A DNA stretch of 64,000 bases from IMG/VR virus record IMGVR_UViG_3300028388_001285, positions 17,998-81,997 of that record, one strand, 5' to 3'. This DNA is from a virus. The stretch's first letter is position 1. Every line of letters starts with the position of its first letter. Positions 3,299-60,167 of the stretch are shown here, in pieces. The notes under the pieces were generated by a model. That model saw nothing but the letters and a program-made list of their open reading frames with translations. It searched no databases and was not told where the DNA came from. The translations under genes were made by a program, and so were the position numbers.

Positions 3299-3366
3299 AA
3301 AACAGCCGTACTTTCGTTTAGCATATCATTTTATTTTGATTATAGAATTTAAAATTCGACATTTGT

Positions 3367-4551: not shown

Positions 4552-4582
4552 TACCAATTTTTAGAAACAATCGTATTTAAAC

Positions 4583-6055: not shown

Positions 6056-6168
6056 AAAATAAGGAGTGCTAGGTCTAGCGACCGATTAGTGCTACCAGTG
6101 ATCGTATAGCTTGCGTTCGTTGTTAGTAGTAGTTATGGGGCTAGCCTAGTTCTTACCAACCGAAAAAT
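6056..6168 (+). other. Structured intergenic region after the capsid gene
   Basis: This 113-base gap has no credible frame. A long-range stem can form between CTAGGtCTAGC (6069-6079) and GCTAGCCTAG (6140-6149): ten base pairs with one bulged T at 6074. The enclosed 60 bases contain a smaller CGAT/ATCG pairing (83-86 with 101-104 of the 6000s). No T-run follows, so a classical intrinsic terminator is unlikely. It could be an RNA-processing or attenuation element lowering expression downstream of the highly expressed capsid gene, or a small RNA. Confidence 0.45.
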
Positions 6169-32262: not shown

Positions 32263-35200
32263 TGGCAAAGCAAAAAGAAGAATTAGAATATAACTTGGGT
32301 GGAGATATAGGTACTGGACTGAGCGCTGCTGCACCTATGATGAGCGCGATTCCTGGGTGGGGAGCTATAGCTGGTATGGGCATGAGTGCCCTAGGTGGAT
32401 TCCTACAGAGTCGGCAGAACGATGCTCCAGCCACGTATCAACAAACCCAGTCCAACACTAATCCATATGGGTATGTAAAGGGCGGAACTATTAAGGAAGT
32501 AATTCCAGGCATAGCTCAGGTAAAGGCTGACACCTCAGCCGAGAACAGAGATGGAGCGCCCGATTCCGTGCAGGTGAATATGGGTGGTACTACGATTGAA
32601 CTTGCTGGAGACGAAGTAGTATTACTAAATGAAAAAAATAAAGGAGGCAGCCTAGGCGATAAGTTACAAGGAGGGTTCGTACTCTCCAACGCATTAACTA
32701 TCCCAGGTACCGACAAGACATTTGCATCAGCAGCTGAAGCCCCTCTGAATATGCTGAAGAATGACGAGAACCCAGCTCTCGCAAGGCAGATGCTACAGAA
32801 CCTGGCCGATCTAAACCAGAAGGAATTAATCAAATCTAATAATAGTTCTGAATATAAATCTGGCGGCAAGCTAACTAACCCTCCTAACAATGACCCAGAG
32901 TACACGATACATGCGTTAGCTCCGGGACAGTCTACTAAAGAGTTTGCTAGGGACGCCTTAGAACGCTATGGGGTAACTGACGCAGAGGCTGTTAAAGCCT
33001 TGGAAGATGATTTACAGGAAAGTAATCAGTTCGAGCCTTGGCAAATGGCAAATAGGTTGAGTCGTAATTATAGGAAGTCACAACAGAGAATCAAGGTGCC
33101 TAAAGACATGACTAAGTATGTCACGATGTTTGATTATCTGAAGGATGAAAAATATGTGGGTGGGAAAGATCTACCTTTCTGGAATCTAGATGATACACGA
33201 AAGTTCTACACTAAAAATAAACCACTGCGCAAGCCTAAAGGAGCTAGAGCTATTATGCCCGGAATGTCTACTAGTAAGTACCATGTACCAGCTAACCCTG
33301 CTAAGGGTATACCAGCATACGGTAATATGGACGAGTTTCCTGAAGAGGCGCTGCGCGGACACATTGACAAAGTACTGGGCAACTACAAAAAGAAATTCAA
33401 AAGACACGGCAAGTCGGATAAATTGTGGAACACAGACCAGGTGATAGCGGGATTGAAGGCGTTACATGATGATACCGGCTACGTGGCTCCAGTGGATCTT
33501 CTCTTCGCACAGATGCGTAAGGAAGGTGCGTTTAATCCTAGTGACGGAGGACGTAGTAAGTATACTAATCCAATGAATGTAGGAGAGACAGACAGTAAGA
33601 CTATCTACAAATTTAAAACTCCCGAAGCTGGTTTTTATGCCTGGGGAAGGTTACTGTATTCAGACTATCTGTCACACAGAACACGGGAAGACTTATATAG
33701 CAAAAAAGAAGCCTTCAAGAATCATGGAGACAATAGGTACGCTACTAGCCCCTACTACGAAGTAGGTGGATATGATGAGAAGAATAGATACCACATAGGG
33801 GTTAAACAGGCTGTGGACCAATATCGTAAGATGATGGTAGAAGATCCTGAGGCAGCGAAAGCTGGGAAAGCACAGAAGAAAATTAATACATACAGTTTAA
33901 AGGAAGGTGATACTCCGTACGAGATAGCAGATAAACTTGGGTTAGACCGAGACGCTTTTCTAGAGTTGAATCGGTTAGCCAGTAATAAGGAAGAGGCAAA
34001 GAGTACTGGACTAATAGATCCTAGCACTTTACCTGTAGGCTACGAGTTGATTTATGAAGATGACTTACCTAAAGCACAAGTAAAAATCTCACCTAAAGCA
34101 CAAGTAAGAATGACGAAAGCAAAACCAGAAAGAGAGGGGTCTGTACCTTCTAACCTTAAGTACTTCATGCCAGCAGGTATGGTACTGGGTAGAAAAGAAG
34201 GTGGTTACATTGGATATAACAATGGCGGACCAATTGAGCACGATGACCCGCGCATGGGCGATATAATGCAGCACGTTGTCACAGCGTTAGATATTGAAGA
34301 TCCAGCTAGTCAAGAAGATTTCCTGAATGACATGGCTAGCCGATACGCTAATATGTGGAATGAAGGGCAGTTTAACAATTGGGACACTTTTTTGGACTAT
34401 GTCAGTAAACCTAAGGATATGGCTACTGCGCAAGGATTCTTGAATGGAGTACCTGGACCACCCCCAAGTAGAGCCGGATTAGCTCAGGCTCTTGCAGGAC
34501 TATACGGTAATACATCTGCTGCCCCTGTGGCTCAGACATCCGCTGCTCCAGCACCAGTTACAACACCGGCGGCTACAGCTAGAACTACACCTGCTGCCAC
34601 AACTACTCCTGCACCAACATCATTTAATCCTAGTACACCATTTAACCCGCTGGTACGAACAGCACCGCAAATAACATCCCCAGCCTTGGCAGCCTCCAGA
34701 ACAGCTGCTGGCACAGCGGCAGTGAACAATGTAGGTAACATGAATATCACGCCTAGTCCAGTAGCCACACCGAACAAATTCGGAAGGTTCATGGAGAACT
34801 TAGGTGGAGCATTCAAAGGTGGAGGCGCTGGTACAGCACTACAGATTGCTGGAGCCCTTGGACAAGGTGCTATGGCATTGTTCAGTAATCAGGGAGAGCA
34901 AGCTGCACATACTGTACCTAATAGGTATAGAGAACAGCAGTACAATCCGGCGTCACAACTGCTAGCCAACCAACGAAGCTTTAGTGGTGCCTTGGATATG
35001 GCACGCAATAGTGCATCTGGGTTTGGACAGTTGATGAGTAGAGGTCAGCAAAGCTACGCTAACAAAATGGCGGCTGATAGAACTACACTGGACAGAGCAC
35101 AGCTGATGAACAATAGGTACCAACAACAATACGACCGATCAACACACGCTTTAGCAAATCAAAATGCTAATAGAATGTGGAAAACTGATCAGGTTAATAA

Positions 35201-35375
35201 GATGGCAAAAGGACAGCGCATGGGCAACTTAGCCACAGCGTTTGGTCAGACACCGATAAATTTGGGACAAGCTATGAACCGACAGGCTGCTAATCAAGAG
35301 GCTGTTAGATGGTACATGCAAGCTATTGACCCAGCATTGGCCGCGTCGATTAAGAAACAAATGAACGTAAGATAA
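32262..35375 (+). CDS. Virion protein with muralytic (glucosaminidase-like) and LysM-like regions (1037 aa)
   Basis: The N-terminus has a Gly/Ala hydrophobic stretch (about residues 13-50). Residues about 410-500 resemble a glucosaminidase/lysozyme-type domain: LLFAQMRKEGAF with a candidate catalytic Glu at 421, NPMNVGE, and EAGFYAWGRLLYSDYL. Residues about 543-600 resemble LysM (YSLKEGDTPYEIADKLGLD ... GYELIYED), which binds peptidoglycan. A Pro/Ala/Thr linker spans about 749-795, then a Gln/Asn/Ala-rich helical C-terminus. It probably travels in the virion and opens the cell wall during DNA entry. No TGA in frame; both neighbours overlap by one base. Confidence 0.65.
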   Translation: MAKQKEELEYNLGGDIGTGLSAAAPMMSAIPGWGAIAGMGMSALGGFLQSRQNDAPATYQQTQSNTNPYGYVKGGTIKEVIPGIAQVKADTSAENRDGAPDSVQVNMGGTTIELAGDEVVLLNEKNKGGSLGDKLQGGFVLSNALTIPGTDKTFASAAEAPLNMLKNDENPALARQMLQNLADLNQKELIKSNNSSEYKSGGKLTNPPNNDPEYTIHALAPGQSTKEFARDALERYGVTDAEAVKALEDDLQESNQFEPWQMANRLSRNYRKSQQRIKVPKDMTKYVTMFDYLKDEKYVGGKDLPFWNLDDTRKFYTKNKPLRKPKGARAIMPGMSTSKYHVPANPAKGIPAYGNMDEFPEEALRGHIDKVLGNYKKKFKRHGKSDKLWNTDQVIAGLKALHDDTGYVAPVDLLFAQMRKEGAFNPSDGGRSKYTNPMNVGETDSKTIYKFKTPEAGFYAWGRLLYSDYLSHRTREDLYSKKEAFKNHGDNRYATSPYYEVGGYDEKNRYHIGVKQAVDQYRKMMVEDPEAAKAGKAQKKINTYSLKEGDTPYEIADKLGLDRDAFLELNRLASNKEEAKSTGLIDPSTLPVGYELIYEDDLPKAQVKISPKAQVRMTKAKPEREGSVPSNLKYFMPAGMVLGRKEGGYIGYNNGGPIEHDDPRMGDIMQHVVTALDIEDPASQEDFLNDMASRYANMWNEGQFNNWDTFLDYVSKPKDMATAQGFLNGVPGPPPSRAGLAQALAGLYGNTSAAPVAQTSAAPAPVTTPAATARTTPAATTTPAPTSFNPSTPFNPLVRTAPQITSPALAASRTAAGTAAVNNVGNMNITPSPVATPNKFGRFMENLGGAFKGGGAGTALQIAGALGQGAMALFSNQGEQAAHTVPNRYREQQYNPASQLLANQRSFSGALDMARNSASGFGQLMSRGQQSYANKMAADRTTLDRAQLMNNRYQQQYDRSTHALANQNANRMWKTDQVNKMAKGQRMGNLATAFGQTPINLGQAMNRQAANQEAVRWYMQAIDPALAASIKKQMNVR

Positions 35376-37183
35376 TGGCAAAGTATCAATATTTTAAACT
35401 ACAGGCTCCACAATTTCAGCTAGAAGAGACTCCGATACAACCAATGCTACAAGCACTTGGGTACAGACAAAAGAGATTCGATGCCGCTTATGAACTAGCT
35501 GGAGACTTAGAGGACCAATACATTGACGCCCTCCCTAAAGATAGGGCTAGGGCTGACGCAATACAAGGTGGCTGGCGTAAAGAGATTGACGACATGGTCA
35601 AAAAGTATGATGGTGATTACTCTCAGATGTATAAAGATTTGGGGGGATTGAAGCGTCGTATGACTAGAGAACTCACGCCGGGAGGTGAGGGTTACGAGAT
35701 AGGACAATCTAAGGCACGCATGAAGGCAGCCTATGAAGCTGGTAAGAAGCAATTAGCTGGCGAGAAGATCACAGGTGACATGCTTAATAACTGGTACAGG
35801 TACACTATGGATAGCTACGGAGGCGTACAGAAAGATCCTACTACTGGAGCTTGGACTGGCATACAGCCAGAAGACATAGGAAACTATGTAGATCCGTATG
35901 AACTTGGACTAGAAGCTGTTAAAGAACTTGTCCCAGATACATGGGAATACTCACGCACAGACGCTAGCGGCATGTACTTCTACGATAAGAGTGGTAAGGA
36001 GAAATATTTATCACAGGATAGAATCCGAGAAGCTGTTTCCAATAGATTGTCCAGCGATGAACGCTACTGGAATATGTTACAGCAGGAAGCTAAGTGGACT
36101 GGACGTCCAATGTCATCTGTAATGAATAGATTCCAAACCGATGTTACAGCATTCGATCCATTCGCCTACTCACAGACAGAGAGTGGTAGTGGTATGAGAG
36201 CAGACAGCGCAGCTATATATGCTGACAAGAAAGCTATGTTAGAGAATTGGAGACCAGATAGTAGGCCAATACAACCAGCAACTCCAGCTTTCAACAACGC
36301 TATGAATATGCCTGACTTTGGTTACACTACAGAGACTGAGGGATACGATCCCGAATTAACGGCTGAGTACTTCGGACACGGCATTAAGCAGAAAGGCACA
36401 GCTGATGACCAACTAAAAGCTTATTATGAAAAGCTAGAGGGACCATTCAAATCAGCATTCTACAAGACTATGCGGGGCGCTAAGGCAACTGAGCAAAGAG
36501 CTGCTTACGAAAGAGGAGACATGAGTCAAGAAGATTACTATGGATTCGTACAAACTAAATGGAAACAAATTGCTGATAGGGTTGGAAATTACAATAATAC
36601 ATTGTATAAGTATCCTAACGAGTACAAGAACGATGACCTAGATAATTGGGCAGCTATGGCTCAGAATGCTCAGTGAAGAGACATGACTGGTAAGAAGGTT
36701 AAGGTACCGAAAGAAGTTGGGGCATTAAAGAATACTGGAACTTCTAGAGCCACTAAGCTAGGGTGGTATCCACAAGGACCGATAGCAACTGGACAAGTGT
36801 TTGGTGAAATGGTCATTGATCCTAACAATCCAAAGAAACAATACATCGTAAGTAGAAGTGACAAGGTATCTGGTAACATGAAAGGTATAAATGAGTTGAG
36901 ATCTCCTTACTATACGGGCAAACCTAGTGGGAAAGTACCAGCTCGTATCAAATACCAAGGTATAGATGTAGGTGTGCTAGCTAGCACTAGATTAGACAAT
37001 AACCTTAATTTTGTTGTAGACTTATATGATCCAGCTAATCCTGGCGAGGTCATAGACACCATAGAGGATGAAATGTCAGTAGGAGACTTCATGGACAACA
37101 TGAATGTAGAGGCTGTAAAGAACGTTGTAGGAAATTCAGGTTTAGGTAGTAAAGCACTATTATTCGGAGAAGAGTTAGATTAA
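35375..37183 (+). CDS. Helical virion protein, candidate packaged/ejected protein (602 aa)
   Basis: TGA at 36674-36676 (NAQWRDMTG) joins two halves; the stop is TAA 37181-37183. The first 430 residues are charged and alpha-helical (RFDAAYELAGDLEDQYIDAL; KSARTDASG-like Asp/Tyr patches further on). The last 170 residues, after the recoded codon, are beta-rich and basic. It lies directly before the giant polymerase-type gene, where crAss-like phages encode proteins packaged in the capsid, so a cargo or ejection role is plausible. I see no catalytic motif. Confidence 0.55.
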
Positions 37184-37193
37184 ATAAATAATT

Positions 37194-40100
37194 ATGCCAG
37201 AAATAAAAGATGTCGTAAGGGCCATTCTGCACCAAAAGGCGCAGCAGGGTTTTCTTGCTGGAAATCCTTCTGTAAGCAGAGAGGGTTTTGTAAATCTAGA
37301 TAAATTTGGGAAATATGACAAGACGCTCACACCTGGAACATGGGAGAACGTCAGAAACTTGTCCCCAAGAATGGCTCAGGAGTACCACAGAGGTACAGAG
37401 CAGCCATGAAACCACAAATATGCAAGGGGGATTGCCAACTTTGTCACAGGTACTGCTTCTAAGGTTGGAGCCACTGTAGGTTTTGCAGCCGGAGCTCTCG
37501 GAGCGCTAGCAACCGGAGAGTTAAGTACGGTCTACGATAATGCTGTAGTGGACGCCTTTACGAAGGCTGAAGCGGCTATGGAGATACCTATTTACGTAAA
37601 AAGACAGTATGCTGAAGGCAACCTTATACATAAGATGGGTACCACTGAGTTCTGAGCTAAGGACTTAGGAGAAGGTCTTGAATTCTTGGCCAGTATGTTT
37701 ATACCAACTTACGGTATAGGACTTGCAGGTAAGGGTTTACAGGCTGTAGCTAAATCTGCTAAAGTGGCTAAGGGATTGGCTCGCGGAGAGCGCGTGCTTA
37801 CTACTGTACTGAACAGTACAGTTGAGGCAGGGTTTGAAGCCAAACATGCTAACGATGAGATTAGAGACCAGCTAGCTAGGCAGAGGGGGTACATATCATA
37901 TGATTTATTACCACCTGATATACAACAGGAGATCTCGGTTTTAGCGGGACAAGCTGCTGCTAGAACTTTCTGGGGCAATATGATTGGTCTGATGTTACCC
38001 AACTATCTGGAGTCTGGTTGGGCTAGGAGTATTATGGGGTTTGACAAAGCAGGTTCCAATGTACGACAAGCCATACGTAAGAAAGCACTATCCCCTGACG
38101 ATATAGTTAAGGCTAAGTCCAAGTGGAAAGCAGCTACTAAGGGTCTGGTGTCCGAGGGTCTTTGGGAGGAGAACTTTCAAGAAGCTGTAGGACAGTTTGA
38201 AGCTAGATTAGCGGAAGGTAAGATCGAAAGAGAAGACTACGCTAAAGAATTAGTACGTAACCTCAGCAACAATGCATGGGGTTTTGCTCGTGCAGTACCT
38301 AACTTACCGTTCGCACCGTTTGGTGTAGACTTCGGTATAGCTGCTAAGGCTGGCACTGAGCAAGATGCTGGTGCCACTGCTATCGCACTCGGAGCTATCA
38401 TAGGTTCTGGAATGAGTACTGTGTCGCAAGCGATGGACAACGCTAGACTGCGAGAATCAGCTGAGCGTGAGAACTCACTTTGAGGTGACCTAGTGAAGTT
38501 CAAGGAAACATTAGACAAGATACTGGTTGACGATCAGAAATCTATATATAAAACTTTCGGAACTGAGACCGACGAAGAAGGTAACGAGACTCCTATCTAT
38601 GTTAATCCTAAGACTGGAGCTACCGAGATTGACCCAGATAAATTACGTAATCTAGCTCTGGCTAACACTGTAGACTTAAACTTCTTTGATGAAGCTGTGT
38701 TTGCAGATGTTAACAACGATGAGTTGTGGGCCACATTCAACGATAAGATGGCGGCAGCCTCATATGGGTGGTACTTAGGATCATCCGGGATATCTAAAGA
38801 AGATGCACAAGACTTACTTGAAGGTAGAGAAGATGCCAATGAGATACTGTCACTCATGGACTCGTTTGAAGAAGCGGAGAGGGACTCCCAGACTTCCGAC
38901 GATATTCGTGGTGAGCAGGTCGACAAGAAATTTAAACGGTTCTTGCATAGGATCAATTACTTCCTTAATGCTCGTGGCAAGATGCTGGACGAGATGTATA
39001 GTAAGAACCCTGAGGTTATCGGTCCTATGGTGGAAGATAATCAGGCAGCTTTACAGAAGGTAACTAACGCTAGCTCTAGGAAAGCTTTGAAGAGTGAGTT
39101 TGTAGAAGCTGTAGGTGGTATAGATACTCTCAATAGAGAGGTTAAAGAACTAGAGACTGAGTTTGAAGCTGTTAAGAAGACTGACCCAGCTAAGGCTGAT
39201 GAGATAGCTAGGAAGATAAGTACTAAGAACTATCTAATGTCAGAGAGAATGCACGTAGACGGCTACGATGCAAACTTACAAGGTATAGATGCGGAGAACA
39301 ACAAGGCGCTTGTAGATGAGTACTTTAGGTCTAAGCATAACAACCCTACTACCTTAGGTATGAACCCATCAATGGCGGTAAGCTACCAGTCATTACGGGA
39401 TCGTAAGTACTATAGGTTAGGTAAAGCTTACATGGCCGCTAAGGATATCAACGACATAGCTGATGAATTTTTAGAGGAAAGAGATATTGATGACTTGAGT
39501 GTAGGTATTGAAGCGCTCAGAGGATCTGCTAAATATTTTAATGGTGAGAACTCTGATGTAACTGCTGCTACCGAAAAGATAAATACAGCGTTAGATGAAG
39601 AAATAGACAAGATAAACATAGGACTTCAGGAAGTAAACGAAGCCATGTATAATTTGGCCGGTGAAAACCTGGGTGCTGAAGAGACGAAGTTAGTAGCTAC
39701 GCATCTGAAGGATACACAGAGTCAGTTACAAACACAGATGGGTCGTATTAAGTTGTTACGCGAGGAGATGTCCTCAGCGCATGAAGCTATTAATGCTACT
39801 GACGATGAGTACGCTGCATGGAATACTGAGGATGGTCTGAAGATGGAACACTTCCGTAACCTGACTAAGAAGATATGGGCATTAGATAGCTTAGCTCTGG
39901 AATCATTCGATAACCTTGCTAAGACTATGCAGTTCATGCAACTGTTGTTAGGAATAGAAGCTGCCTTCGAGGATAGAACTGACATCAGCGATGACCTAAA
40001 GGCAGATGTAGCTGCTGAAATACTACAGCTTAAGGAGATACTTAAAGCTTACAGAGAAGCGGCTGAAAAGAATATGCAATCCAGAGCCTCGAAACAGGTG

Positions 40101-43100
40101 AGAGCTTTGCGGGAGTTAGGACAAGTAATGAATGAGGCTACTCTGAAACTTGAAGCTCCAAGACAATTATTGCTAGATGTATTTGGTAATGATGCTATCA
40201 GGGAGTTCGAGAAGCAATTTGGAGACGAACCTTCTTTCGAACAGTTCGAGGTATTGATGTCCCTGTTCTCAGAGAGAGCTAGTGATGGGCAAAAGCAGAA
40301 GATGCGTGAAGCATTGCTGCGCACAGGACAGTCGACGGTTTCAGCATTGTCTACTCTCAGTAAGGGATTAGCTGATCCCATGAATCCTACGGATAGGGGG
40401 AGTAAGATACTAACAAATTACCTTGCGAATCCCATTAAATATGCGTCCGCAATTGTGATGCCACTACTTGGAGGAGGACTGTTCACACCAGAGAATACTA
40501 TATTCTGGGAGTATAGGGAGAACAAAGACATAGCAGAATTTAAACACCAACTTGAAAGTATATCTTACGCAGGTTTATCAGTAGACAAAGCTAGTAAGCT
40601 GAAAGCATTCTTCGATGCACATACATTAATGCGTGGATTACAGTTGGCTGGGGAGTTTCTCAGCGCTGAGAAAGCTAACACTGCTAGGATACTTGAGGAA
40701 GAGGTGAAACTGCATAAGGTATTGTCTAAGGACAAGGCTCCTGAAGACGTTATAGCACCTACTCCACAGCAGTATGTAGCTTACCAAGAGGCCATACGAT
40801 TCTTATTCAAACCATTAGCGTCCAAGTGGGCGAGTAATACATTCTATCTTGAAGGTTTCCCTGGGTCTGGCAAGACTAAGGTAGCTGCTAGAAGGATAGT
40901 TGACTTGTGGAAAAGTTTGGAACATATCACAGACAGTCAGATTTATACGGCTGGTAACACTGTGGCGTCATCAAAGATTATCCACGAGGCTGTTAAGGGT
41001 ACCGAAGGAGGTGCCACTACTATTGAGGATCTGTTAGCTGCCGACTTAACTAACACCAAGTTAGTCATAATTGATGAGGCTCCAGCTTTAGAGAGAAGTG
41101 TAGCGTTAGCTTTAACGAAGAAGTTAAATGCTGCTAAGGTGAAGACTATAATCCTGGGCGACCCTGCACAGGTTACAGTAGATGCACACCCGTTTTTATT
41201 AAACGAAAAGTACATCAGAATAACTATGTCAGATCCACTGACTGCCAGTTATCGTACTAACATACCAGCCATCTATGATTTCTTCATCAACTTTAAAAAC
41301 ACTTCAGCGGTACACAGACAGTTAGCTGCTACTAGTAACATGTCGCTAGGGGATGTGATTAAACCGCACTCAAATGCTCTCGGTGTTGTAGGAGATACTG
41401 AGAGAAGTACGATGCTTAGGGCAATTGCTAGACCTAGCAGCAGATCGAAGTTACTTATAGTAGCCAATAAAGATCAGAAGCAGCGATACCTCAATGAGTA
41501 CTTCAAAGATCCTGAGTACAATATATCTGATGTAGAAGTATTAACTTACGATCAGGCTAATGGTATACAGGCTGATGAGGTGTACATAGATATGCCCACA
41601 ACTGCATTGGACATCAAAGGCAATAACTTCAAACCTATTGGATACAACAAGGCTATGTATACTGCTGCAAGTAGGCCGGTTAAGTTCTTGTTCGTGTTAG
41701 GCTCATTAGTACAGACACAGGTAGACAGTATGTTAGACTCTACCGTGCAAACTGCTGCTAGTGAACTGCTTCAAAATGTGGAGCAGTATGAGGGTATATT
41801 AACTGCTAAGGGTAATGCACATGCAGCCCTAACAAATGAGGCTGTAGATGGTACGTTGTTCGATGACATTGATGAAGTGTTTGATGCAGCGAAGACTACC
41901 GACAAGGAAACTACAGACGATGATATAGAGATTGCTAGACAAGAGCGAGGTAGCCCGGATCAGGAACTGCCTGAGGAACCAGAAGATGTTGGTGCTATAG
42001 AGAAAGAAGATCTAACTGAAGAACCAGTTGAACCTACTAAGTTGCCTAGAGTGACTTCAGAGGTAATCGAATATGACTTCAAGTTCCCACAGAACTCTAA
42101 CATTAAAGTTGACAATTTAGTAGCCACAGGCTCACAGTTTAAAATAGTAGCTGCTGTTTCCAGATCACCTAAGAAATTTCCGGTAGCACACTACGTAGTG
42201 GCTCCAACTATAGGTGACCCTAATAGATATGTGGTAGTAGCTATGTTAGGTAACGATGATTACCAATCCGGTGAGATGGGAATGTGGCTGAAACGTGAGG
42301 AAAATAAATTCAAGGCTGATCCGAATAGAGGGCCAGTTGAAAGTTCCACACGTATCAGAATGGATGAAGATGGATTTGATTGGGGGCCAGACCTCGACAG
42401 AGCTGTTATAGGAGAAGGTACGTTAAGTAATGTACAAAAGTTACAGTATGTATATGACCGTAGTGCTGAGACAAGCATGGAGTCTGACATACACAAGTAC
42501 TTGGATACGTTCTTCCCAAATGATGACACTTATCGTACTGGTAAGAAATTAAACTGGGCAGCGTTGAACCCATACATTAAGTACAAGATATTTACATCTG
42601 ACTTTGGACCTGATGCTGCATCTAAAGTGCCTAAGGGACAATTTGTGCCTAGACCTGGTGTACCATATGCGGTGCTTCAGTTACCGATGCCTAACAGCGA
42701 GAAGAAACATTCTCCACAATACATAAGACAGCAGCGCCGTAAGGTTAGGATGGATCATCCGTATATAAAGACTCTTCGTGAGTTGTACGATAACATCATC
42801 ATACTTGAGGCTGGACTAGGACTTGAGTACGGTACGGAGGAGTTCAATAAACTCATCAAGGCGAACGCAACTAGATTTGAGCTTGGACCCAAAGAGAATG
42901 GGTTCCCAGTGAAGTTGCAAGATAACCCTGCGATGCCTAAGGAACTTGAGGATCTAACTGCGGAGCAGATTAATGCTCTGGACAGCTTAGTCAAGTTACT
43001 ATATGGGGCTGAATATTCTAGAGTTGTTGTAGAGACTAAAGCTGAAGCAAACGCTTTCACAAAGTCTGGGGATGGTAGATTCTATATAGACAAGGAATAT

Positions 43101-46100
43101 ACTGGTAATGGTTATGCGTTCATGGAACGTGTGGCGGAAGATTCCTCTATCGCTCAACCTGAGCCATACAGACAATGGCAGATGAGGGGTGGTGTAGGCG
43201 AAGCTTCAACAGCATTCAACGCCATAGCTGTAGCTAATGGTAAGATTGAAGGACTTAATATTAAGGTTAAGAAGCGTAAGAAGACTAGTATAGGAACTGT
43301 TGAGTTCTACGTTGGTAAGTCATTACTAGCGTTCACAGAGAACACTCGTAGATTCATGGCTGCCATGCGTGGTAGGTACGAGGATACGCGGAAAGAGGCT
43401 AGTGACTTCCTAGGCGAAGCTTTACCTGAGAAGTTTCCCAGAGATTGGGAGACAGCTATGAAGGTATTAGCTAAAGTATATGATGATAGTAATGGTTTGT
43501 ACGGTGTTGATCGTGCAGATATTATGAGGGCACAGAAGGAACTAATTGCTAAACCAGTCACTACAGACTTGTTGGCACAGATCGTCACGCCTACTAGTGA
43601 AAGACACCCAAGCTTAGAATTACCTATCTATCGAAAAAGTTTCGGACACGACAAGACAAATACAGGGTTTAATGACCTTGGAAGTAACTTAAATAACAAA
43701 GACAATAGAGCTAGGATCGCTGAACAGGTGCACGGTAACCTTTCTAGAGTGATACCTACAGTAGTTACGGGCAGAATAAAGAATACAGTTACCGTGACTG
43801 AGCAACAGGTACCAGTTAAAGCACCTAAGAAAGTCAAGACACAATCTCAATTCAATAAGCTAACTGTGGACCAACAGTACAGTAAGATAGTCGGACTGCA
43901 TAAGCAAGGACGGGTAGATGATGAAGTGCTGCAATGGGCTGCCGAAGCTAAAGAAGATAATGATAAAACCTCGCTTGAAAAGATATGGGAGCTTGGTAAC
44001 ATGACAGATACTATGCGGTCTATCAGTACAGATACTACACATGTATCTAAAGAAGAGGCAACCAAAATATTAGGTCGATTAGACTTAGAGCATAGGACAT
44101 ACGAACTATCTGAATTAGTGGATAAGTTGACGCAATTCATGTCACCATTTCATAGGAAGTTGATGTGGGCACTGACACACGCAATAGATAGTTTAAGTAA
44201 ATCTGGTATCACTGTAGATTTAGCACACGTAGCTAAGGGAGACTACGCACATGCACTTGGACTTAGATTCCCTGACGGAAGGATTGGACTATATACTGGT
44301 AGGATATTCCAGACAACTAAGAAATACACTGGGTTCAAGTTGGGCAGGGTACTGGCTCATGAGTTAATACATGCTATTACATCCGATAAATTATATCGGT
44401 TTGAGACTGCGGAAGAAGAGTTCACTGGACGCGAGCGCGAGATACTACAACAGTTATTCGATATATTCACGTACGTTAAATCCCTTAAAGGTGTACGTGG
44501 AGATATGGATAATTTGCGAGAGTTTGTTGCGGAGGTATTTGCCAGCGAGAGGCTTGCAAGAGATCTATCTAGAATAGAATTACCACCCGAACTGAGGTAC
44601 AAAACTAACTCTAGGGGCATCCTAGATACTGTTAAGAACCTCATCACTAACTTGCTAAGAATAGTGATGAAACCATTCTTACGTACTAGGTCAGCAACGG
44701 AAGCTGTAATCAATTTAGCCGGAGAACTTATAGACATGCAGCATAGAGCTGGTGTATACGATGACCCTAAGAAGGGGCATCATGCACTGTCACTGGATGA
44801 CCCAGACGGGTTCCAGTATATCAAGACTAACTTTGGTGGAGTCGAAGGTTATAGGATAGCCAAGAACTTTATCCTAGAGAGGTTGGCATACTATAAGATG
44901 ACTGATGATGACTCCGGTAGAGAGAAGAGTGTTGGGTACTTTATACCAGTTGATGATGCTGGATTCGTAGCCTCTAAAGAGGAGATCTACTATCAGATAC
45001 ATTCTGATATCAATTCACATATAGCATTCAATAGAATGTTAGCTAAGAACTTGGTACGAGATATTGCTATGGATGAAGCTGCGATAGAGTCAGCCACCAA
45101 CGTACGTCAAGAGAGGCTAGCCAAGATTGCTAAGGAGATATCTGAAGCTAAGTTAAAAAGGGTGCAGGACGCAATACCTGCTTTCGAGACCCTGATGCGT
45201 AACAATAGAGTGACACATCGTCCAGTCTACTTTGAAGTTATGAAGACTATCTTCCCTAACTGGTCGATAGGAAAAGAGACTCAGTTGGACAAGTACAGGT
45301 ACGACACTAATGAAAACTTAATACGTGAGATGATGTCTGTGGAGGGTGTAAACCTTAAGGAGCAGATCATCGACAACGAGTACCAGAATAATGTACATAA
45401 GTTAAGCGATTCAGTAAAGGACTTCTTGTCAATAGTACAGTACACTACTAGTGATAATAAGATTGTAACAGTTAATCCAAGCTACGCTTATGTACGGGCA
45501 TTGCAACTATTCCGCAAGTTAGACTTCAATACTATTGTAGATTTACAAGACTTTGAAGATAGGAGAAAAGAAATAGAGAAGACTGAAATCATAAATGATG
45601 CTACTACCTCTATACTGGATAAGTTAGCTGACTTATTACAAGATGCTACGTACACTTATAACATGCCTAAGTATGTCAATGTGATTATACATAGACCTAT
45701 AGGGGCTTTAACAGACGAGTATTACCTAATACTGTCTAATACGGAGGAAGTAACTAACGTAGTACTTCTTGAAGAAGCTAAGGAGATAGCAAAGAATGAC
45801 CCTGATTTCAGAATTGTAAAGAGCAGTTCTTATATACTCAGAGATTTATATGAGGAGGCAAACATGCCTATCACTCCTAAGCAGTTCAACAAACTATATG
45901 ACAGAGCACTAGCTAGGAATACATTAGCTGAGCTACACACATTGTTCTCATCTCAGAAGGAGACCGAGTTAATGATTGCTTCTAAAGGTCTCGACAAGAA
46001 TGGTAAAAAGAAGATACGATACATCAAAGCTAAGGACTTAGGTGTTAATGTATCTGTACGTAGGCACATAGCTGATGAGTTAACTGAGCTGAACGAGGAC

Positions 46101-49100
46101 TTAAAAAGTAAAGGTGGGTTAAAGAACTTTTGGAACAGTCGCGTAGGAATAGAGATGGATGGACTGCTCACTGGAAACAGACAAGAGAAACTAAAAGGTA
46201 TATACAAGTTCTACTCGATGATGGGACTCGGGCATCTAATCCGAGAGCATAATGTGAAGTACGCTGTAAGATCAATAGATGGTACAGCGAAGACTATCAT
46301 AGAGCTTATGACCGACATATCAAATACCTTAGCAGATACCCGTAAGACTAAGTTGTTAGTGGACGGTGAACCTCAGGTGGATGATAGGGGTAAAACTATA
46401 TACACTAAGACCTCACGTACAATGGAGGATGCATTAGCTAACAATAACGGACGTATCTTACGACTGTCCAACATTGTCAGTAGGAATACTGAACTAGCTA
46501 GAGCCACATCAGTTAGAGATGGTGCAGGTAAGACTCTGTATAAATATAATAACTCACACTATTTGTATGATCTGTTCGATGCTATGATTAGCAAGAGAAG
46601 GGACAAACATGAGTTTAGAGACAAGGGATTACCACAGTTCTTGAAGTCTGAATACTTCTCACATAATATATTTGTGAATGGGTTGAACTCATTACACACT
46701 AACCTGCTATACCATGATGTGTTCAGAAATGAGAATGTAGGATCGACTAAGGTATACGGAAAGGAGACTGCTAAACACCGAGCCATACGAGAATTCGTAG
46801 CGGGCTTTGTGGCCACACTGGATGCCAGTGGTAAGGCTAGAAGATATAACCAATTCTTCTACCCACCCTCTGACAGAAGTAAGGTGTTCTCAGCGGAAGT
46901 ATCCGCACTGACACCGGACGAGATTAAGGAAGGGTTGTTGAAGATCATACAACAGTTCAAGGCTAGACCTGTAGTCGGACACGTTAAGAATTATAACAGA
47001 AAAGCTTATACTAATCTGCGACTACTTGAATCAGCTGTTCAGGAACTAGGCGGTGACATCAGCAGTATCTCTGAGAAGAAACTAGTGAACAAGATGTTCG
47101 ATAAGTTAGGAGAGGAAGCTGTTAAAGCTGCTAAAGAATTTATTGCTAATGAGGTAGACATCCCCGGTGATTTCCATAAAGTCATGAGCGACTTACGTAA
47201 AGGCAAGAAGTTTATCGTAGACGTCAAGTCTGCTTTTAAGTTTCATGATAAGGAGTTTGCTGGAAGTAGTCCAATACAAGATTACAAAAAGTTACCAGAT
47301 GGTAGCAGAGCATACGATGTAAAGGTAGAACAGATACTACCACTAGTAGATGCGTTCGTTAAGAATAACTATGTCAATGGATTCTTTTTGAATCAGTTAG
47401 CTGTAGGAGACTCAGCATACTACAAGCAGTGGGAGGATGATATCGTTAAACGTATGGCTGGACCGACTGCCTCTGGGCAGATTGGCTTAGTTCATCCTGA
47501 CTTTGGTATGCGCGAGAATTATAAAGTACTGGTACTAGGAGATGCAGAGTTAACTCCTGAGAATATTAGAAAGTTCTTGGAGAGATTCTTGAAACCTGAG
47601 GATGTAGAGGAAGTCATAGAAGCCTTCAGTAAAGGTAATATAGACTGGACAGATGCACAAGGATTCATAACTCCTAGGAGAGCGCAGGAATTACGTAAAG
47701 GATTTGGTAGAGCCTACAAGGTAGGACGTGTAGTCAAACCTGTACACTTCGAGATACGTACTGATTGGGTACCTCTAATGAACTTTGGGGAAGAATCTGC
47801 CGCAAGTGCCCTGATGAACCCTGCCCTTCAAAAACAATTAGAAGGAAAGAATTTTAGGATATCTCCTGTAGATCCCACTGTAATTGAGGAAGGTATCCCC
47901 ATCCCAACTTACACCAAGTACTCAGCTGTTGAGTTGAGTGACGACTTAGCTGATATTGATACTGGTAGATTTAAGAGATCACTAGGTATTATACGCCAGC
48001 GTATGGAAGAGTTAGGAGTAGATGAGGTTATTTTTGGTTCAGGTATAAAAGTAGGAGCACCTAAAAACACTATAGATGTTGAAGCTTTTGTACGTGGGGA
48101 TAAGGTAGAGCAGAACAACATACTCACCCTTTCAAACAGGGACATGAGATTACAGCTGAACCCTTGGCACGATCCAGATAGCCACGTAAGTATATACACA
48201 CAGTTGATGTACTTTATAGGTATCTTAGGAGAGAATGATGCTGATGCTGGTGCTGTATATGACTCACTAGCTAGTGTAATTAAAGAAGGAACAGATTTAG
48301 CAGACGAAACATTAGATGATGGCTCAGGATTTAGAGCCGCAGTAATGAGTGCGCTGGAAGGTAGGGGTAATGAACGTGCCCTGCAACTGGTAGAGTCAGG
48401 ACTATCTTTTGACAACCCGATACTACAGAAGAAAGCTTTGGTAGCATTAGTTAACATGATTGAGAAGCTTACTATCAGGGTGAAATTCCCCGGAGGTAAG
48501 ATGGTCCTTCAATCTGCTTACGGTATACAGAAGTATGGTGTTAAAAAGCTGGAGTCTGGTGCTAAGCATAGAGGCGAGGAGCTCACGTATGGTGAGGATG
48601 AGAACGGTAGGCTATATGCTGAAGTAATCATGCCTAAGTCAGTGTTGACTAAGAAACAGATTGACGCGATTAATAAAGGTAAACCTCTCTTTGCATTCCA
48701 CGATGCGTTTGGATTTAGAATTCCATCCACTGAATTACACTCAGCTGTACCATTAAAGATAGTAGGTACATACGATGACTATGGAACCAATGTTATCATT
48801 GCTCCGAAGGAACTTGTACCACTGCACGGATCAGACTTTGACGTGGATTCACTCTTCATAGTATGGAGAGACAGTGCTAAGAATAACGTAGAGGTATTAA
48901 ATACTGACAAGCCACTCAAGGCACAGGATGTGATAGATGGCAAGTTCACTAATAGAACGTTGGTAGCTGAGGGAGATTACATAGGCTACGCTGGTGGTGA
49001 ATTAGACCCTGAGTTTTTACCTAAGCTCGACAGGATAGAAGAGGAGTTGAAATCATTGCGTACCAGATGGGCTAGAATAAATAACGAGCCTAAGGAATAC

Positions 49101-52100
49101 GCTAGATTACGTGCGAGAATTAGCAAGGACTTACGCAAGGTAAGAGAACTACGCATTAAATACCACAAGAATGTTATCACTGAGCACATGCTTAAGATCA
49201 TGACTGATCCTAAGAACCGCAAGCGGATGCTCACACCTATATCTACTGAGGAGTTTGGCAACACGCTGGATGAGTTAGGATTAGGTGGTAAGGAACACCT
49301 TGACTTGAACCTGTACACAGATAAGAGCAAGGCATTTAACTTAGTACGAGATGGTCAACAACTAGTTGGTATCTTTGCCAACAACATCAAGTCTCTAGCT
49401 TACATGGTTAGAGCTGGAAGTACTGTTGATAGACCGGTTACTAAAGAGAAGACTCACTTTGATTACACTACTATAGACGGTGTTACACGTACCTTTGATA
49501 GAATTAGAGAGTACGATGTAACTGACCCAACTAAGCAGATGTGGCAGAGGTTAGATGCTATGGTTAATGCGGCGATAGATAACATCAAAGAACTTAAACT
49601 GCCTAGAGCTAGTATCAATGTAGAGAATGGTAATACTTTCAGTGCCTTACTCGGATTAGGTATGCCTATACGAGACGCTGTGATGCTGTTCAATCAGCCA
49701 GTGACGCTGGAACTGAATAAAGCTAAATACTCTGACCCAGTTATGGCTAGGAGTGTACTGGCTAAAGCCATAGCTCTAGAGAAGAAGTCTAGAGGCATAG
49801 AGGAAGCTGAACCTATTACTCCAAGTGCTGACATCTTAGAGAATTATCTAAGTGAAGATCTTGATATTGAGGGTATGTCTAATGAGGAGCTTCTGCAACA
49901 GGAGGCTATACTAGACATATTCAAAAAGGCTAGCATGTTAGGGGAGAACTTACGAGGTATGTCCTCATTCTTATCTATAGTACGACAGTATCCTGTTGAC
50001 GCAGCTGGAATTGACGCTGTAACGGATGACTTCAACGAGATATTTGGAGAGTACGAGGACGCTAAAGCACCTATAGATATACGAGGTGGATTCTATTATG
50101 ACATCCCCAACTTCTTCAAGGTCAACCCACACATTGCTGCTACATATGAGGGGTACTTGATGATACGTAAGTACATGGACACACAGTTTGCAGTACACTC
50201 ACAGGAGTTCAGGGACTTCGCTAAGGACATGAAGAATCTTAAGATAAAACTTAACCGAGGTTGGGAAGATAGTTCTAGTGCAGCTAACAAAGCATTGATT
50301 CGTGAAGAGTTAGTCAAGTACTTGATGGCAGATATACTGGTAGACAAAGTAGTTGATACTGAACCTTTCTTAATATTCGGATTCAAGGATAGAGCTAGGA
50401 CTCTGTTTGGTTCGAGTGCATTCTCACATAGGTTTGTGAAGAAGGTACAGGCAGCCAAGAAAGCAGATTACCTTAGGGCTAGAAAGGATTCAAGCTATAA
50501 GCCTAATTCATTCCTATTCCACCTCAGTGTAGACAGAAACTTCTGGACAGGTATGCTGAGCCTTAGGTTCTCTAAAGGATCTAACTTAACTATAGATGAG
50601 GTAGAGGAGCTGGAGCAAGACTTCATTTCATTAAAGAACTTACTCTTCGAAGAGGGGAAACGTAATTACTCTGCTGAGTATACCAATGATCTCTCACTGA
50701 TACCTCAAGGGTACTCAGAGTTTCAATTAGAGTTTGTAGATTATGCAGTCCTGAATTATGGACTTGGATATTCCTCAGCTAACTACTCTAACATACTGCC
50801 TACGTCTATCTATAAAGAATTAGATGCCGACATAAAGCAAAGGTTAGAACATTTCCGTAGGAGTGAAGACTTACGGGCAGATATAAAGGAACACTTCGAG
50901 GTGTCACTAGCTACTATGTATGCGGATAAGTTACCGTATGTACCTAGTAGAATTAAGGCTTCTAAACAAGGGGTCACACAGTTTACAAACAAAGAAGGTG
51001 TGTCTGAATCAGAGCCATTATACTCTGGTAAGAAGATTATAGATGGTAACCCAGTACATTTTGACAGGTTATATGAGAAGGTCAGTAAAGACGATGCCTC
51101 ATACATGTCATCTTATATCAAGTCTGGTATGGGAGACAGAGCCGAGGCGTTCATAAAAGTATATACTAGTGAGGACGGACACTCACATGCGTATCAAAGA
51201 ACTGGTGTCATGCTGGATAAATCCTATGAGGTGTATGAAAGTATTGATGAGCCTTATCTGATAATGGATTACTTCTCACCTAGACAACGTACTATTAAGG
51301 TACAGGACATCAACGAAGATAAGATAGATACACACCACAACATGGCTGGTTATGAAGGTGAAGAGATTCACTTGGTAACTAACTCTGATGTGACTAGAGT
51401 CAATCGTAGAACTGTAGTGGTACAGAAAGCTACCCAACACAAGGGTGGTGGTACTACATTAGAAGTAACTACTGCTTTACCTGATCCATTCGTTGAGTCA
51501 GAGACAGACTTAGATGCGTTTGATATGGAGATACCACACACTGAGGAGTCTGGACCGGGCATTCCTGATGCATTTACTGCTAATCGTAATGAAACTTTAC
51601 GTGCAGATATAGAAGCGTGGAGTGCTGCTGCTAGATTAAATGAGACCGAAGAACGGTACGAGATATCTGGTAACAACTACGGACGTGTAAGTAATGTGCT
51701 TAATGCTTTCAGAGATATAGAACCTGGAGCTAAGTGGTTCGAGAAGCAAGCTCAAAACAGATTTAAAGGTTACCCAGAAGGTACTAAGCTTCACACTGAG
51801 GAAGGTACCATGACTGAGGAGGAATACTTAGAGGCTCTGAAAGTGAAGGATGTCAAAGGTAGAACACGCGGTAAGATCATCCACAATATCATACAGACAT
51901 TCATCAAAGAGTTTTACAATGAAGATGCAACTGAGTTGTATGCAGAAAGGGCTAGACTATTAAATGAAGGTAACTACCAACCTTGGGAGTTCAACTGGCT
52001 AATTAAATTAGTACCGTCTATTATAAAACGGTCTGGTATTAATGTCTTTGATAAGATATTAGCGGAAGAGAACCGCGATCATGTCATGTCGGAGGTAGTT

Positions 52101-55100
52101 GTTGCTAGTGACATATTAGATATAGCGGGTACTATTGACATGTTAATACAGCATGGTGATGGGACTTATTCTATCGTAGACTTCAAGACTGGTATTGCAT
52201 TTGGGGCTGAGTCACCGCATAAACTCAAGTATTACAATGGTATCAACAGTGACATCCATACCTCACCTAGAGACATGGCTAAGTTACAGATAGCGTTGTA
52301 TGCATTCATTATGAAGGCACAGCATCCAGAGATCAAGTTTAGAAACCTAGAGGTGAGTTGGATACCTTCAGCTAACTTCAGCACAATGGTAGATCACAAA
52401 CGCCATGTGGATATGGAAGATTACTTACATATTATTAAGCAATGGTTACAGCGTGATCCTAAGATGGCTGAGACATGGGTTAAGATACAGAACTTAGATC
52501 ATTTCAAACAGTTGTTTGACCCGACTACATACAATGCTAGTTATTCTAAATCTATATCGGAGGACTTGAGTGAAGATGGTAAGACTCCAGAGCAGTTGAT
52601 CCAAATAAAAACTCAGAGACTTAAAGAGTTGACCTTATACAAGGTAGATGAGGAAACACCGGACGATGATGTGGCTAGAGCTAAGAAGGTAGAAGCCATT
52701 AAATTAGTACAGGAATTGGTGGAACTAAAAGGTGACAAGAACACCAACTATGATGGCTGGAAGGCTGACATAGGAGAGTTAAGTACTTACCTTGGTAACA
52801 TCAATGACATCAATCACCCGTACATTAGATTATACGGTACTGAGTTTGAGAAGGCCAAGCAACGTGCAGACAAGAGATTTGACACGTACTACAAAGGGTT
52901 CCTCGCTAGGATGCGACCTGTATATAAGTCGTACCAGAAGCGTAAAAAAATACCTACTCCTTGGGAGAAGTTACCTTTCATAAAGGGTAGCCTCAACCTC
53001 AACAAGTACACTGATATATTTGAGCCAGCGTTAAAGCAGAAGAAGCAAGGGGACGTAAGTATACCTAGCTTCAACAACACTGACGCTGACTGGTCTGCTG
53101 CACAAACTAAGTACAGACTTTCAGACAAGGAGATCAGTGAGTACAAAGCACTCGTCAAGTACTTGCAGGACTCATACGAGGGTTTCTTTGTGGACAGTAA
53201 GTCGAAGTATGGTACGGCAGTATGGAACCAAGTAGCTACAACACGTAAGATAAAGGGTGTAGAAGAGTTTGTCACTAATGGTGAACTGTTCAATGGCATG
53301 AAAGGGGGCGACAAGTTCAGTGTGAATGCCCGTACAAGCCCATTTAAGTACTCTAGAGAGACGTTCATGCCTATGATATACCGATCAGCTTGGGAGATTG
53401 TAGAAAAGGAAGGAGCGGCCTCTAAAGAGCACAGAGATCACCTCTACCATAAGTACTTGAAGATGTTCTACGAGGACACATTCGACCAATGGTATAACTC
53501 AGAAGAGGCGTTGCCGTTGAAGTATCTACCAAATGATTACGTACTGGCTAGTGGAAACTACTCTATAAATCTTGAACAGCAGTTTGATCTATTCATGCGG
53601 TCTATGATATACAAGGAAGAACTTGACGATGTGTATGCATTCGGTAAGGGACTCCAGTATTTATTTGACCCGCAAATAGAGGATTCAAAAGCATGGAAGA
53701 GAGCTAAGCACTTTATGAAACTTAACATAGAGATGCAGCTTAAGGGTAGAAGGCAGAAGGATATACAGCTGTTCGGTAGGAGACGTAAGGACATCATCAA
53801 GATGGGTAGAACATTCAAGCAAGGAGCAGCCGCGCCTATTATGTGGTTGAAACCTATTACAGGTACAGTGAACGGTATCTTTGCATTTATGGTTAATATA
53901 AAGGAGGCCATGAAGGGCTCAATTATAAAGGATGCAGCTAAACTATTTCCAGGCTTGAAATTAAATACCGATATTGCAGACTTCACCGTGTCCGATCTAG
54001 CGTGGTCCATCAAAGAGTATTTCAAGATGCAGTTCGCGGCGGCCACTGGTGGTTTGAAGCGTAATAAGATGTTCTTAATGGCTAAGAAGCTACAGTATCT
54101 CCCCGACAACTATAAGTGGGCGAGTGATTCGTCACACCTGTTGACTACGAAGAACAAATTCTTCTCACAGCGGACATTATATATGTTCCACACGATACCA
54201 GAGGAAGCAGTAGCATTCATGGTCATGGGAGCACAGCTTAGGAACATGAAAGTGAGTAAGGATCATAAAACACACGCGGGTACATCTCTTTGGAATATGT
54301 ACGACGTTGTGAAGAAAGCTAATGACGATGGAACCGAATATCACGATGTACAGTGGAAACGTCATAAAGACGGTCCAGATAAAGGTAGACCAGTTGTTAG
54401 AGGCAAGATAAATTTAAGTAAAGACGAAGCAAAAGAAAGATGGGAAGATGTGACTGAACTCAGTTCTTTGGAAGCCCAACGTCTAAAGTACGTTTACCAG
54501 AGAATGCATGGTGGGTACAGGGAAGACGAAAGAATAACGTTAGAGTACTATCTATTAGGGGAATTATTTATACAGTATCGGAAGTTTCTGCCTACAATCC
54601 TGAAGAATGGTATGATGTCAAAAGGTAAGCTGGATAGTCTAGGCCACTATGTTACCACTGGTAAGAAGGATGGCGTAGAGACTATGGAGTGGACAGCAGA
54701 AGTAATGGAAGGTAGATGGCTAGTAGTAACTAAGATGTTACTAGCAGCACTAGGTATAAAAGGTAAGTTCGATAATCCTTCGAACGCATATCAGAGGGTA
54801 ATGAATCGTGTGCTACCTCATAAGAGGGAAGATTACATGTGGAGAAATCTGGAACCTAGACAGAAAGAAGCTATGATTGACTTTGCAGTCACTATGGCTA
54901 CATGAGGTGCTATCTTTGCAGGTTACTACGCTATGTTTGGGATGCAGGGAGACGATGATCCAATACGTAAGTTGTATGCACGTATTATGAATGACTACTC
55001 ACAGCAGTATAATGTGTGGGAGATCAGTAAGAATATGATGAACAACTTATCACCTGTATCATTCAGGAAAGGATACAAAGCTATGGATGCTACATCAACA

Positions 55101-55295
55101 TTGTTAATGTCAGTGATAATGGCTGAAGTATTTAATGACCCCGATGCACTAACAGCGTTAGGTAATTATAGAGGAATAGCTGAAACGCAGAGGTCAATAC
55201 CTTTGATCTCTTCTTACAGAGACTTAGAAGTTTTCCTAAGAAAGACGGAAGACTCTACGCTTCAGGATTACTTACTCTTCAGAGGTTTCAACTAG
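37194..55295 (+). CDS. Giant virion RNA polymerase polyprotein (6033 aa): helicase, metallopeptidase, DxDxD RNAP, PD-(D/E)XK nuclease
   Basis: One 18.1-kb gene, continuous only with TGA (37407, 37653, 38481, 54903) as Trp; it ends in TAG. In order: a hydrophobic N-terminal region; long coiled coils (about 430-1100); SF1 helicase motifs GFPGSGKT (1221-1228), IIDEA (1292-1296), GDPAQ (1322-1326) and TAASR (1490-1494); metallopeptidase HELIH (2389-2393) with a following EFVAEVF; RNA polymerase double-psi barrels with GSGIKVG (Lys 3619) and DFDVD (Asp 3881, 3883, 3885), the metal-binding DxDxD of YonO/crAss-type polymerases; a RecB-like PD-(D/E)XK nuclease (His 4897, Asp 4982, DFK 4996-4998); and a C-terminus with hydrophobic helices. 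By analogy with the phi14:2 virion polymerase it is probably injected to transcribe early genes. Confidence 0.85.
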
Positions 55296-59153: not shown

Positions 59154-60167
59154 TTATTCAAATAGGTCAAGTTCGATGTCCCCATGTTGTTCATATATAT
59201 TACGTGGGAACTCTCATTTATCTGTTTTAATATGCCACTTCAAATCATCTATTAGTTGATCAATGCCTTTAACTGTTGTTCTACCTCCTCTCAGTGTACC
59301 TCCGCTGAGCCCCGCTCTTATATCATTATCGGAACATGAATACACTATGGCAGGGGCAGGATTTGGTCTAGTTTCTACGACCAAAAACTTAAAGGGCTTC
59401 ATGGAAAAATTATTTGAAATAGCTTCACTAATAGCGCTTTCTTCATTAGTATATATTGGTAACAATTCTAACCCTTTTGTATAAAAAGCGGCTTGTCTGT
59501 AGTATCCAAATTGTTGAAAGCTCTTAGGAAATGAATATGCACTTTTACCTGTAGACTTTAAGTCTCATGGTTGGATAGATTGTTCATTGTAATCTATTGT
59601 AACTCCATCCATAAAACCTTTACATAACATGTCCTTGTATTCGAACTGAAGTTCTAGCTGGTAAAAATGTTTTACGTCTTTTGATTTAGTAAAGTACTTT
59701 CCAGTAAATGGAGAGTTCATTACTGCGGCAGCAGATTCAACAGCTATTTGATATTCATCTTGTGATAGTATATCCCTATCGTTCACTTCGCATTTTTCTT
59801 TGTAGAAGTTCTTAGCTGTATCGCTGCTCCAAAATATATTAATAACTCTTTTTAGGTTGATTTTATACCCAGCTATATTGTAAGCATCTCTGTACTTAGC
59901 AATTGCTGATGTGGCCGTTAGTCCACAAGGTAACGCTTCGGTAAATTTACCTAGCAATCCTTGAGGTCTTTCGGATTTAGTTACTACAAATAGATTATCC
60001 CACTGATCAGGAGTAGTTAAAATACAATCAATCGCACTACCAATTCTGAAGTATTTAGTATCTATTACTTCTTTATCTCCATCCATTCATTTACGTGCGA
60101 ATAATGGGTTATCTATTAATGTTGACAACAGGCTATTAGATATCCTGTATTTTAGGTAATCACTCAT
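59154..60167 (-). CDS. PD-(D/E)XK exonuclease-like protein (YqaJ/RecE type, 337 aa)
   Basis: Reading three TGA codons as Trp (ARKWMDG; IQPWDLK; TDKWEFP) gives a complete nuclease-like protein. The N-terminus (MSDYLKYRISNSLLSTLIDN) and RIGSAIDCIL (about residues 41-50) resemble phage RecE/YqaJ-type exonucleases. The catalytic region is GFMDGV (Asp 187) and W-D-L-K (Asp 202, Lys 204), followed by a Gln/Tyr helix (SFQQFGYYRQAAFY) as in RecB-like nucleases. TGA is codon 201, immediately before the catalytic DLK. It probably processes DNA ends for recombination or replication. The start lies inside the end of the upstream endonuclease gene. Confidence 0.75.

Follow-up and report, generated by a model that had tools for sequence, protein, structure and literature searches.

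The closest described systems for the locus analysed here are those of the crassviruses phi14:2 and crAss001. In phi14:2, three genes of the late cargo block, in the order gp67-gp66-gp65, encode proteins that have all been detected in virions by mass spectrometry. For the RNA polymerase (RNAP) of this phage, the presence in the virion and the transcription of early genes have been shown in the literature, and the structure of the gp66 enzyme has been solved (PDB 6VR4). The counterparts in crAss001 are the RNAP-associated proteins gp47, gp49 and gp50, which sum to 694 kDa and are also present in virions according to mass spectrometry (PMC10172136). Zeta crassviruses of the same clade can differ in where one protein ends and the next begins (Yutin et al. 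2021), PDDEXK nucleases within large transcription proteins were already described in 2021, and crassvirus RNAP chains of up to ~6000 aa have been mentioned in a review.

Long RNAP chains are also found among the Suoliviridae of GenBank, for instance cr273_1 gp35 (5794 aa) and those of cr7_1 (5443 aa), cr118_1 (4946 aa), cr6_1 (4400 aa) and cr109_1 (4328 aa). Like the chain described below, these giants join a gp67-like region, a zincin peptidase and the RNAP, and they stand in the same gene order; however, their gp65-like gene is separate and lies downstream, so that the five Suoliviridae examined whose block is complete have a chain of 4328-5794 aa and another of 1381-2043 aa. A long fused RNAP chain is not unprecedented in Crassvirales. 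An earlier reading of this locus from its letters alone (the sequence-only reading) had stated that these functions occupy shorter or separate proteins in well-studied phages, which is right for phi14:2 and crAss001 but overstated in view of the GenBank chains and the review. Nor is it new for an RNAP chain to include a helicase, since the cr118_1 chain carries a complete SF1 helicase (AAA_30 1.7e-25, UvrD_C_2), although it is situated behind the RNAP and not in front of it as in our chain. In GenBank, this 4946-aa chain (MT774379.1, 16381-31221), with a virion RNAP (DFDID 3209) and an SF1 helicase, is named 'DNA helicase'; similar misnaming affects cr124_1 ('DNA helicase') and cr109_1 ('DprA-like').

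The window, that is, the whole stretch of 64,000 nucleotides analysed, corresponds to bases 17998-81997 of an IMG/VR virus record of 81,997 bases. It contains one gene that very probably encodes the whole crassvirus transcription block as a single polypeptide, a block that elsewhere is distributed over two or three virion proteins. The order of domains is a gp67-like N-terminus, an SF1 helicase, a zincin peptidase, a double-psi-barrel (DPBB) RNAP, a RecB-type nuclease and a gp65-like C-terminus. The features of this gene are the following:

37194-55295, + strand: single gene, 6033 aa, 683.7 kDa, with TGA as Trp and TAG as stop (code 4 frame; collinear with a 6679-aa ORF in the relative G001)
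37362-39293, + strand: N-terminal region, residues 57-700, homologue of phi14:2 gp67 (BLAST 2e-17 for residues 63-335; P+Q profile against gp67 domE 3e-21)
40746-41792, + strand: SF1 helicase, residues 1185-1533 (Pfam AAA_30 3.8e-9)
41958-42023, + strand: acidic linker, probably disordered, residues 1589-1610
44130-44735, + strand: zincin-like metallopeptidase core, residues 2313-2514, with H2389, E2390, H2393 and the third ligand E2443 (tetrad invariant in 27 sequences; type-2 profile 6e-10)
44616-45107, + strand: C-terminal flank of a type-1 peptidase module, residues 2475-2638 (type-1 profile 5e-8)
47334-50183, + strand: predicted virion RNAP core of the phi14:2 gp66 type, residues 3381-4330 (profile and fold match to 6VR4)
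47916-47918, + strand: invariant Lys 3575 (TKYS; 29 of 29 sequences, common to gp66)
48048-48050, + strand: invariant Lys 3619 (KVG; 29 of 29 sequences, common to gp66, cr112 and cr273)
48834-48848, + strand: DFDVD, catalytic DxDxD motif, residues 3881-3885 (29 of 29 sequences; aligned with DFDID 1361-1365 of gp66)
51810-52454, + strand: RecB-type PD-(D/E)XK nuclease, residues 4873-5087 (PDDEXK_1 5.3e-9)
52464-55292, + strand: C-terminal region of the gp65 type, residues 5091-6033 (P+Q profile against cr112 gp5 4.7e-6)

The length of this protein depends on recoding. With NCBI code 4, the frame is open over 6033 codons without a break, but with code 11 it is interrupted at codons 72, 154, 430 and 5904 and the longest remaining piece is 38493-54905 (5470 aa). 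The TGA codons are:

37407-37409, + strand: codon 72 (Trp), TGG in 2 of 5 aligned relatives
37653-37655, + strand: codon 154 (Trp), TGG in all 7 aligned relatives, phi14:2 gp67 among them
38481-38483, + strand: codon 430 (Trp), in a variable alignment column
54903-54905, + strand: codon 5904 (Trp), matched by TGG in several relatives, by TGA in locus L060

Reading TGA as Trp is, as a prediction, sound, being supported by the alignments at codons 154 and 5904, by the muzzle gene, which is also crossed by two in-frame TGA codons, and by a tRNA with anticodon UCA present in the record. This tRNA has a long variable arm (L002:10731-10824, + strand; tRNA-Sec-like score 36.2 bits) and is the likely opal suppressor. 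A recoding of TAG as Gln, tested first, does not open the frame. It could be argued that TGA is a true stop here and that the protein consists of only 5470 aa, or of several ORFs, as TGA accounts for no more than 4 of the 60 Trp codons of the gene and code 11 gives no frame above that length. This is highly improbable and largely refuted already: homology continues across the TGA codons, one of which falls on an invariant Trp, the muzzle gene and the UCA tRNA speak for recoding, and the corresponding gene of a relative (G001) is open without it. The single gene of 6033 residues proposed by the sequence-only reading therefore stands, although its dependence on recoding had not been mentioned.

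The giant gene is placed after the muzzle gene and two putative cargo genes and before genes of the opposite strand:

27955-32262, + strand: crassvirus muzzle protein, 1435 aa (PF25731 6.5e-50)
32262-35375, + strand: putative cargo protein 1, 1037 aa (assigned by its place in a gene order shared with phi14:2 and Suoliviridae, without sequence match)
35375-37183, + strand: putative cargo protein 2, 602 aa (assigned likewise by gene order, without sequence match)

Its order within the late cargo block is that of gp67-gp66-gp65. Together with the muzzle, the capsid protein (PF23898 1.8e-80) and the portal (phrog_6547 5.6e-119) are markers that assign the window phage to the order Crassvirales, as a remote relative of crAssphage, a common virus of the gut. 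The portal is ~30% identical to those of several Crassvirales families alike, and in the RNAP tree the clade of the window is separate from six sequences of Steigviridae and Suoliviridae (support 100). A genome-contig search for relatives found none.

The core of the chain is, by profile and model, a crassvirus virion RNA polymerase. A profile of 29 sequences gave 6VR4 (7.5e-56) as its one meaningful match, and BLAST of the middle region against phi14:2 gp66 gave 9e-12. Residues 3401-4200 used as tblastn query retrieve crassvirus RNAPs; single-sequence searches of IMG/VR and PDB with the RNAP segment alone gave no match, the helicase, middle and C-terminal pieces as tblastn queries found none in 50,697 phage records, and in a Pfam scan neither RNAP nor peptidase families reached the cut-off (M48 only 0.018). 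The sequence-only reading had proposed a crass-like phage with a single-chain double-psi-barrel RNAP and had placed DFDVD in that barrel. In agreement with this, the AlphaFold2 model of residues 3381-4330 is a confidently predicted domain that includes DFDVD (mean pLDDT 79.8, pTM 0.82) and whose best Foldseek match in PDB is 6VR4 (E 4.5e-24, TMq 0.66); next came a plant RNA-dependent RNA polymerase (1.1e-3). The outcome by which that reading would have been refuted, a structure prediction at odds with this placement, thus did not arise. The lysines K3575 and K3619, invariant and shared with gp66, are candidates for the catalytic lysines of a second, beta-like barrel.

By collinearity the chain equals gp67, gp66 and gp65 of phi14:2, the gp65 part being weaker. 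Its mass of 683.7 kDa comes near the 694 kDa of gp47, gp49 and gp50 of crAss001 together. The match of the C-terminal region to gp65 itself is 0.009 with the P+Q profile, and cr112 gp5 in turn matches gp65 at 1e-32. The weakness of this C-terminal match counts against regarding the chain as the complete transcription block, as do the absence of helicase and nuclease from phi14:2 and most known crassviruses, or their location elsewhere, and the single HExxH of the chain. In phi14:2, neither the SF1 helicase nor PDDEXK is detectable with Pfam. Given this distribution among crassviruses, no characterised homologue indicates what part the two enzymes play.

Two other kinds of giant proteins are comparable. 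The N4-like virion RNAP (Schitoviridae gp50) is also giant and fused to a zincin, and there is a weak fold hint of likeness to the chain of the window. However, it is a T7-type single-subunit polymerase whereas the window core is a DPBB enzyme; no T7-type fold was found in this core, 6VR4 being the only significant fold or profile match. Polyvalent proteins (Iyer et al. 2017, PMC5512222) share with the chain the combination of disparate enzyme domains and a zincin in one presumably injected polypeptide, but the window protein has a DPBB RNAP core, and in the Pfam scan it showed no ArdC-N, DdrB-ParB, ART or methylase-helicase domain.

The fusion into one gene is genuine and not unique to the window contig, as other contigs have the same one-gene form. 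G001 (106,629 bases) was found through its capsid protein, which is 76% identical to that of the window phage, and it contains a frame of 6679 aa, unbroken in the standard code and collinear with the window protein: window residues 58-6015 align with 55-6672 in blocks of 25-35% identity. The same end-to-end order in two independent records makes an assembly artefact very unlikely. An alignment-based scan of IMG/VR yielded 36 loci, for which the N-terminal (N), RNAP and C-terminal (C) parts were then queried separately. The three parts share one frame in G001, G008, G009, G011, G012 (with a TGA inside the C-terminal part), G016, G018/G019 and G031, so that the three-into-one architecture is present in at least 8 contigs. 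In seven of these single-chain relatives (G001, G016, G018, G009, G008, G031 and G011), with frames of 6045-6679 aa under the standard code, helicase, peptidase, RNAP, nuclease and C-terminus are collinear as in the window; they possess two HExxH peptidases, as against a single one in the window, which is of the second type and stands at the first position. Other relatives show RNAP and C in one frame, without a match to the N-terminal query (G023, G024, G025 and G040), two chains divided as N+RNAP and C (G020-22 and G028), two chains with RNAP and C but no N-terminal match (G027, G033 and G039), N separate from RNAP+C (G017), or three chains (G035-G037). As far as found, a recurrent and complete three-into-one fusion has not been described before.

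Joins between the chains of the transcription block come and go between close relatives. In the RNAP tree, the RNAP/C border changed at least 7 times, 5 of these changes being forced by strong branches, and it differs even between the sisters L045 and L049 (support 100). This tree was a quick one with some long branches, and it does not separate fusion from fission.

The sequence-only reading had also recognised the SF1 helicase, HELIH, DFDVD and the RecB-like nuclease, all of which are present, HELIH at 2389 and DFDVD at 3881. The helicase has its Walker A (K1227), Walker B (D1294, E1295), motif III (G1322, D1323, Q1326) and motif VI (R1494), and motifs I, II, III and VI are invariant among the relatives compared. 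In the nuclease, which resembles AddB/Cas4/RecB exonucleases, D4982, D4996 and K4998 are kept in 18 of 18 sequences and H4897 in 17 of 18. Both enzymes are thus predicted to be catalytically intact. The conservation of these residues and the likeness to exonucleases are what favours the view, put forward in that reading, that helicase and nuclease constitute a weapon degrading host DNA upon entry. This is unlikely. In AddAB/RecBCD the nuclease follows the helicase immediately and forms a unit with it, an arrangement that the window chain lacks: the two domains are ~3300 residues apart and belong to different chains in G017, G020, G028, G033 and G035, so that they would not form an AddAB-like unit. 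Besides, nothing favours host over phage DNA as their target, and an attack on host DNA is speculation.

The HELIH motif, taken for a metallopeptidase in the sequence-only reading, belongs to a zincin-like HExxH...E tetrad, and its conservation bears this out. The peptidase model has a pLDDT of 65.7 overall and of 80-92 in the core, and Foldseek gave no significant PDB match, the best being N4 vRNAP gp50 (E 0.59). In most relatives, one HExxH peptidase (peptidase 1) is located between helicase and RNAP and another (peptidase 2) between RNAP and nuclease. Separate RNAP chains begin 96-149 aa before peptidase 1 (L035, L039, L054 and L057-L059), and separate C chains begin 127-256 aa before peptidase 2 (10 loci as well as phi14:2, cr273 and cr7). 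In phi14:2 the peptidase is located in gp65 (HEIMH at 245), and the motif stands at 243 in the C chain of cr273 and at 251 in that of cr7. L064 and cr112 are exceptions, with the border just behind the peptidase. Since nearly all borders of split chains are near a HExxH and only ~8% of the fused chain is found within 260 aa upstream of one, the peptidases mark the junctions, a rule for which, as far as found, there is no earlier description. When the junctions were searched for disordered linkers, only one was clear, that behind the helicase.

The sole HExxH of the window chain lies at the N/RNAP border, and there is none at the RNAP/C border. It is not an ordinary first peptidase, since the excised piece matched the second type better (2.1e-10 versus 3e-7 for the first type); its core is akin to the peptidase that relatives have at their RNAP/C border. 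With the full chain, the type-2 and type-1 profiles match separate sub-regions. Window positions 44130-45107 show a peptidase exchange, with a second-type core at the first-type position followed by a first-type flank, and loss of the peptidase of the RNAP/C border. L042, the locus closest to the window in the tree (support 88), likewise carries a peptidase of the second type (HEGLH) at the first position and has none in its C chain.

The location of the peptidases points to a self-cleaving polyprotein as a real possibility, though one that falls short of an even chance: the zincins would cut beside themselves at ancestral borders, giving the same two or three chains as in phi14:2. A cut by the internal metallopeptidase after ejection had been suggested in the sequence-only reading. 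The proximity of split borders to the peptidases and the invariant tetrad are in accordance with self-cleavage, and so are the changes of the RNAP/C border, at least 5-7 in the tree, which suggest that the number of chains hardly matters. However, borders have to fall between domains anyway, no cleavage site was found, and both the RNAP/C border of the window and the C chain of L042 are devoid of a peptidase. Our estimate of self-cleavage is held back by the N4 vRNAP, which has a zincin and yet is packaged unprocessed, the zincin region being needed for packaging (PMC5512222). This precedent, the non-significant Foldseek match to N4 gp50 and the alternation of fused and split forms between close relatives (L045/L049), expected if linkage is neutral, argue instead for a chain that stays whole like the N4 enzyme, its zincins serving packaging or acting on host proteins. 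Such an uncleaved machine is a plausible option which we do not regard as probable: the constrictions of the tail barrel (<50 A) make ejection and refolding difficult for a chain of 684 kDa, and nearly all borders adjoin peptidases. Somewhat doubtfully, one may think of a phage lineage with a self-processing virion transcription polyprotein of 6000-6700 residues, which zincins at the ancestral borders would divide into three parts and in which fusion and fission would be nearly neutral. A search of the open-access literature found no described crassvirus polyprotein.

By homology with phi14:2 and crAss001, the chain is most likely virion cargo and then an early-gene RNA polymerase. It would be made late and packaged near the portal, it would be ejected partly unfolded, ahead of the DNA or with it, and its RNAP would transcribe the early genes. 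With less confidence, the helicase may be given a role in opening or clearing promoter DNA or the DNA that enters, and the nuclease one in trimming DNA at an early stage of infection. The peptidase might also sever the chain at its former borders, which would make the number of genes almost neutral. The crassvirus virion RNAP, in itself unusual for having both catalytic barrels in one chain, can gather all its partners, together with a helicase and a nuclease, in a polypeptide of ~684 kDa. As the peptidases are consistently found at the joins, self-cutting of the kind considered for polyvalent proteins becomes testable, with defined places for cleavage.

Several other genes of this phage deserve mention. 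To the left of the window, ARAGORN detects a tmRNA-like gene (L002:11897-12222, which is record G000:C1:11897-12222, + strand) with the tag APDQEKCSLWYNITTHRRFVVS; it matches the Rfam tmRNA at E=2e-16 and 45.7 bits, slightly under the gathering score of 47 bits. Adjoining it, with small phage genes on one side and the capsid block on the other, is the gene of a full-length GroEL of 558 aa (L002:12762-14438, + strand; TIGR02348 3.7e-199, above cut-off), which might assist the folding of the giant chain. A Por_Secre_tail protein (type IX secretion sorting) and a PNK3P polynucleotide 3'-phosphatase are encoded at L002:14441-15217 and 15224-15775, respectively, the former hinting at a Bacteroidota host. 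Within the window, the structural region contains a 2650-aa ORF with three in-frame TGA codons (10232-18184, + strand), and the opposite-strand block encodes a second, separate PDDEXK-like protein (59154-60167, - strand; DUF3799 5.5e-4).
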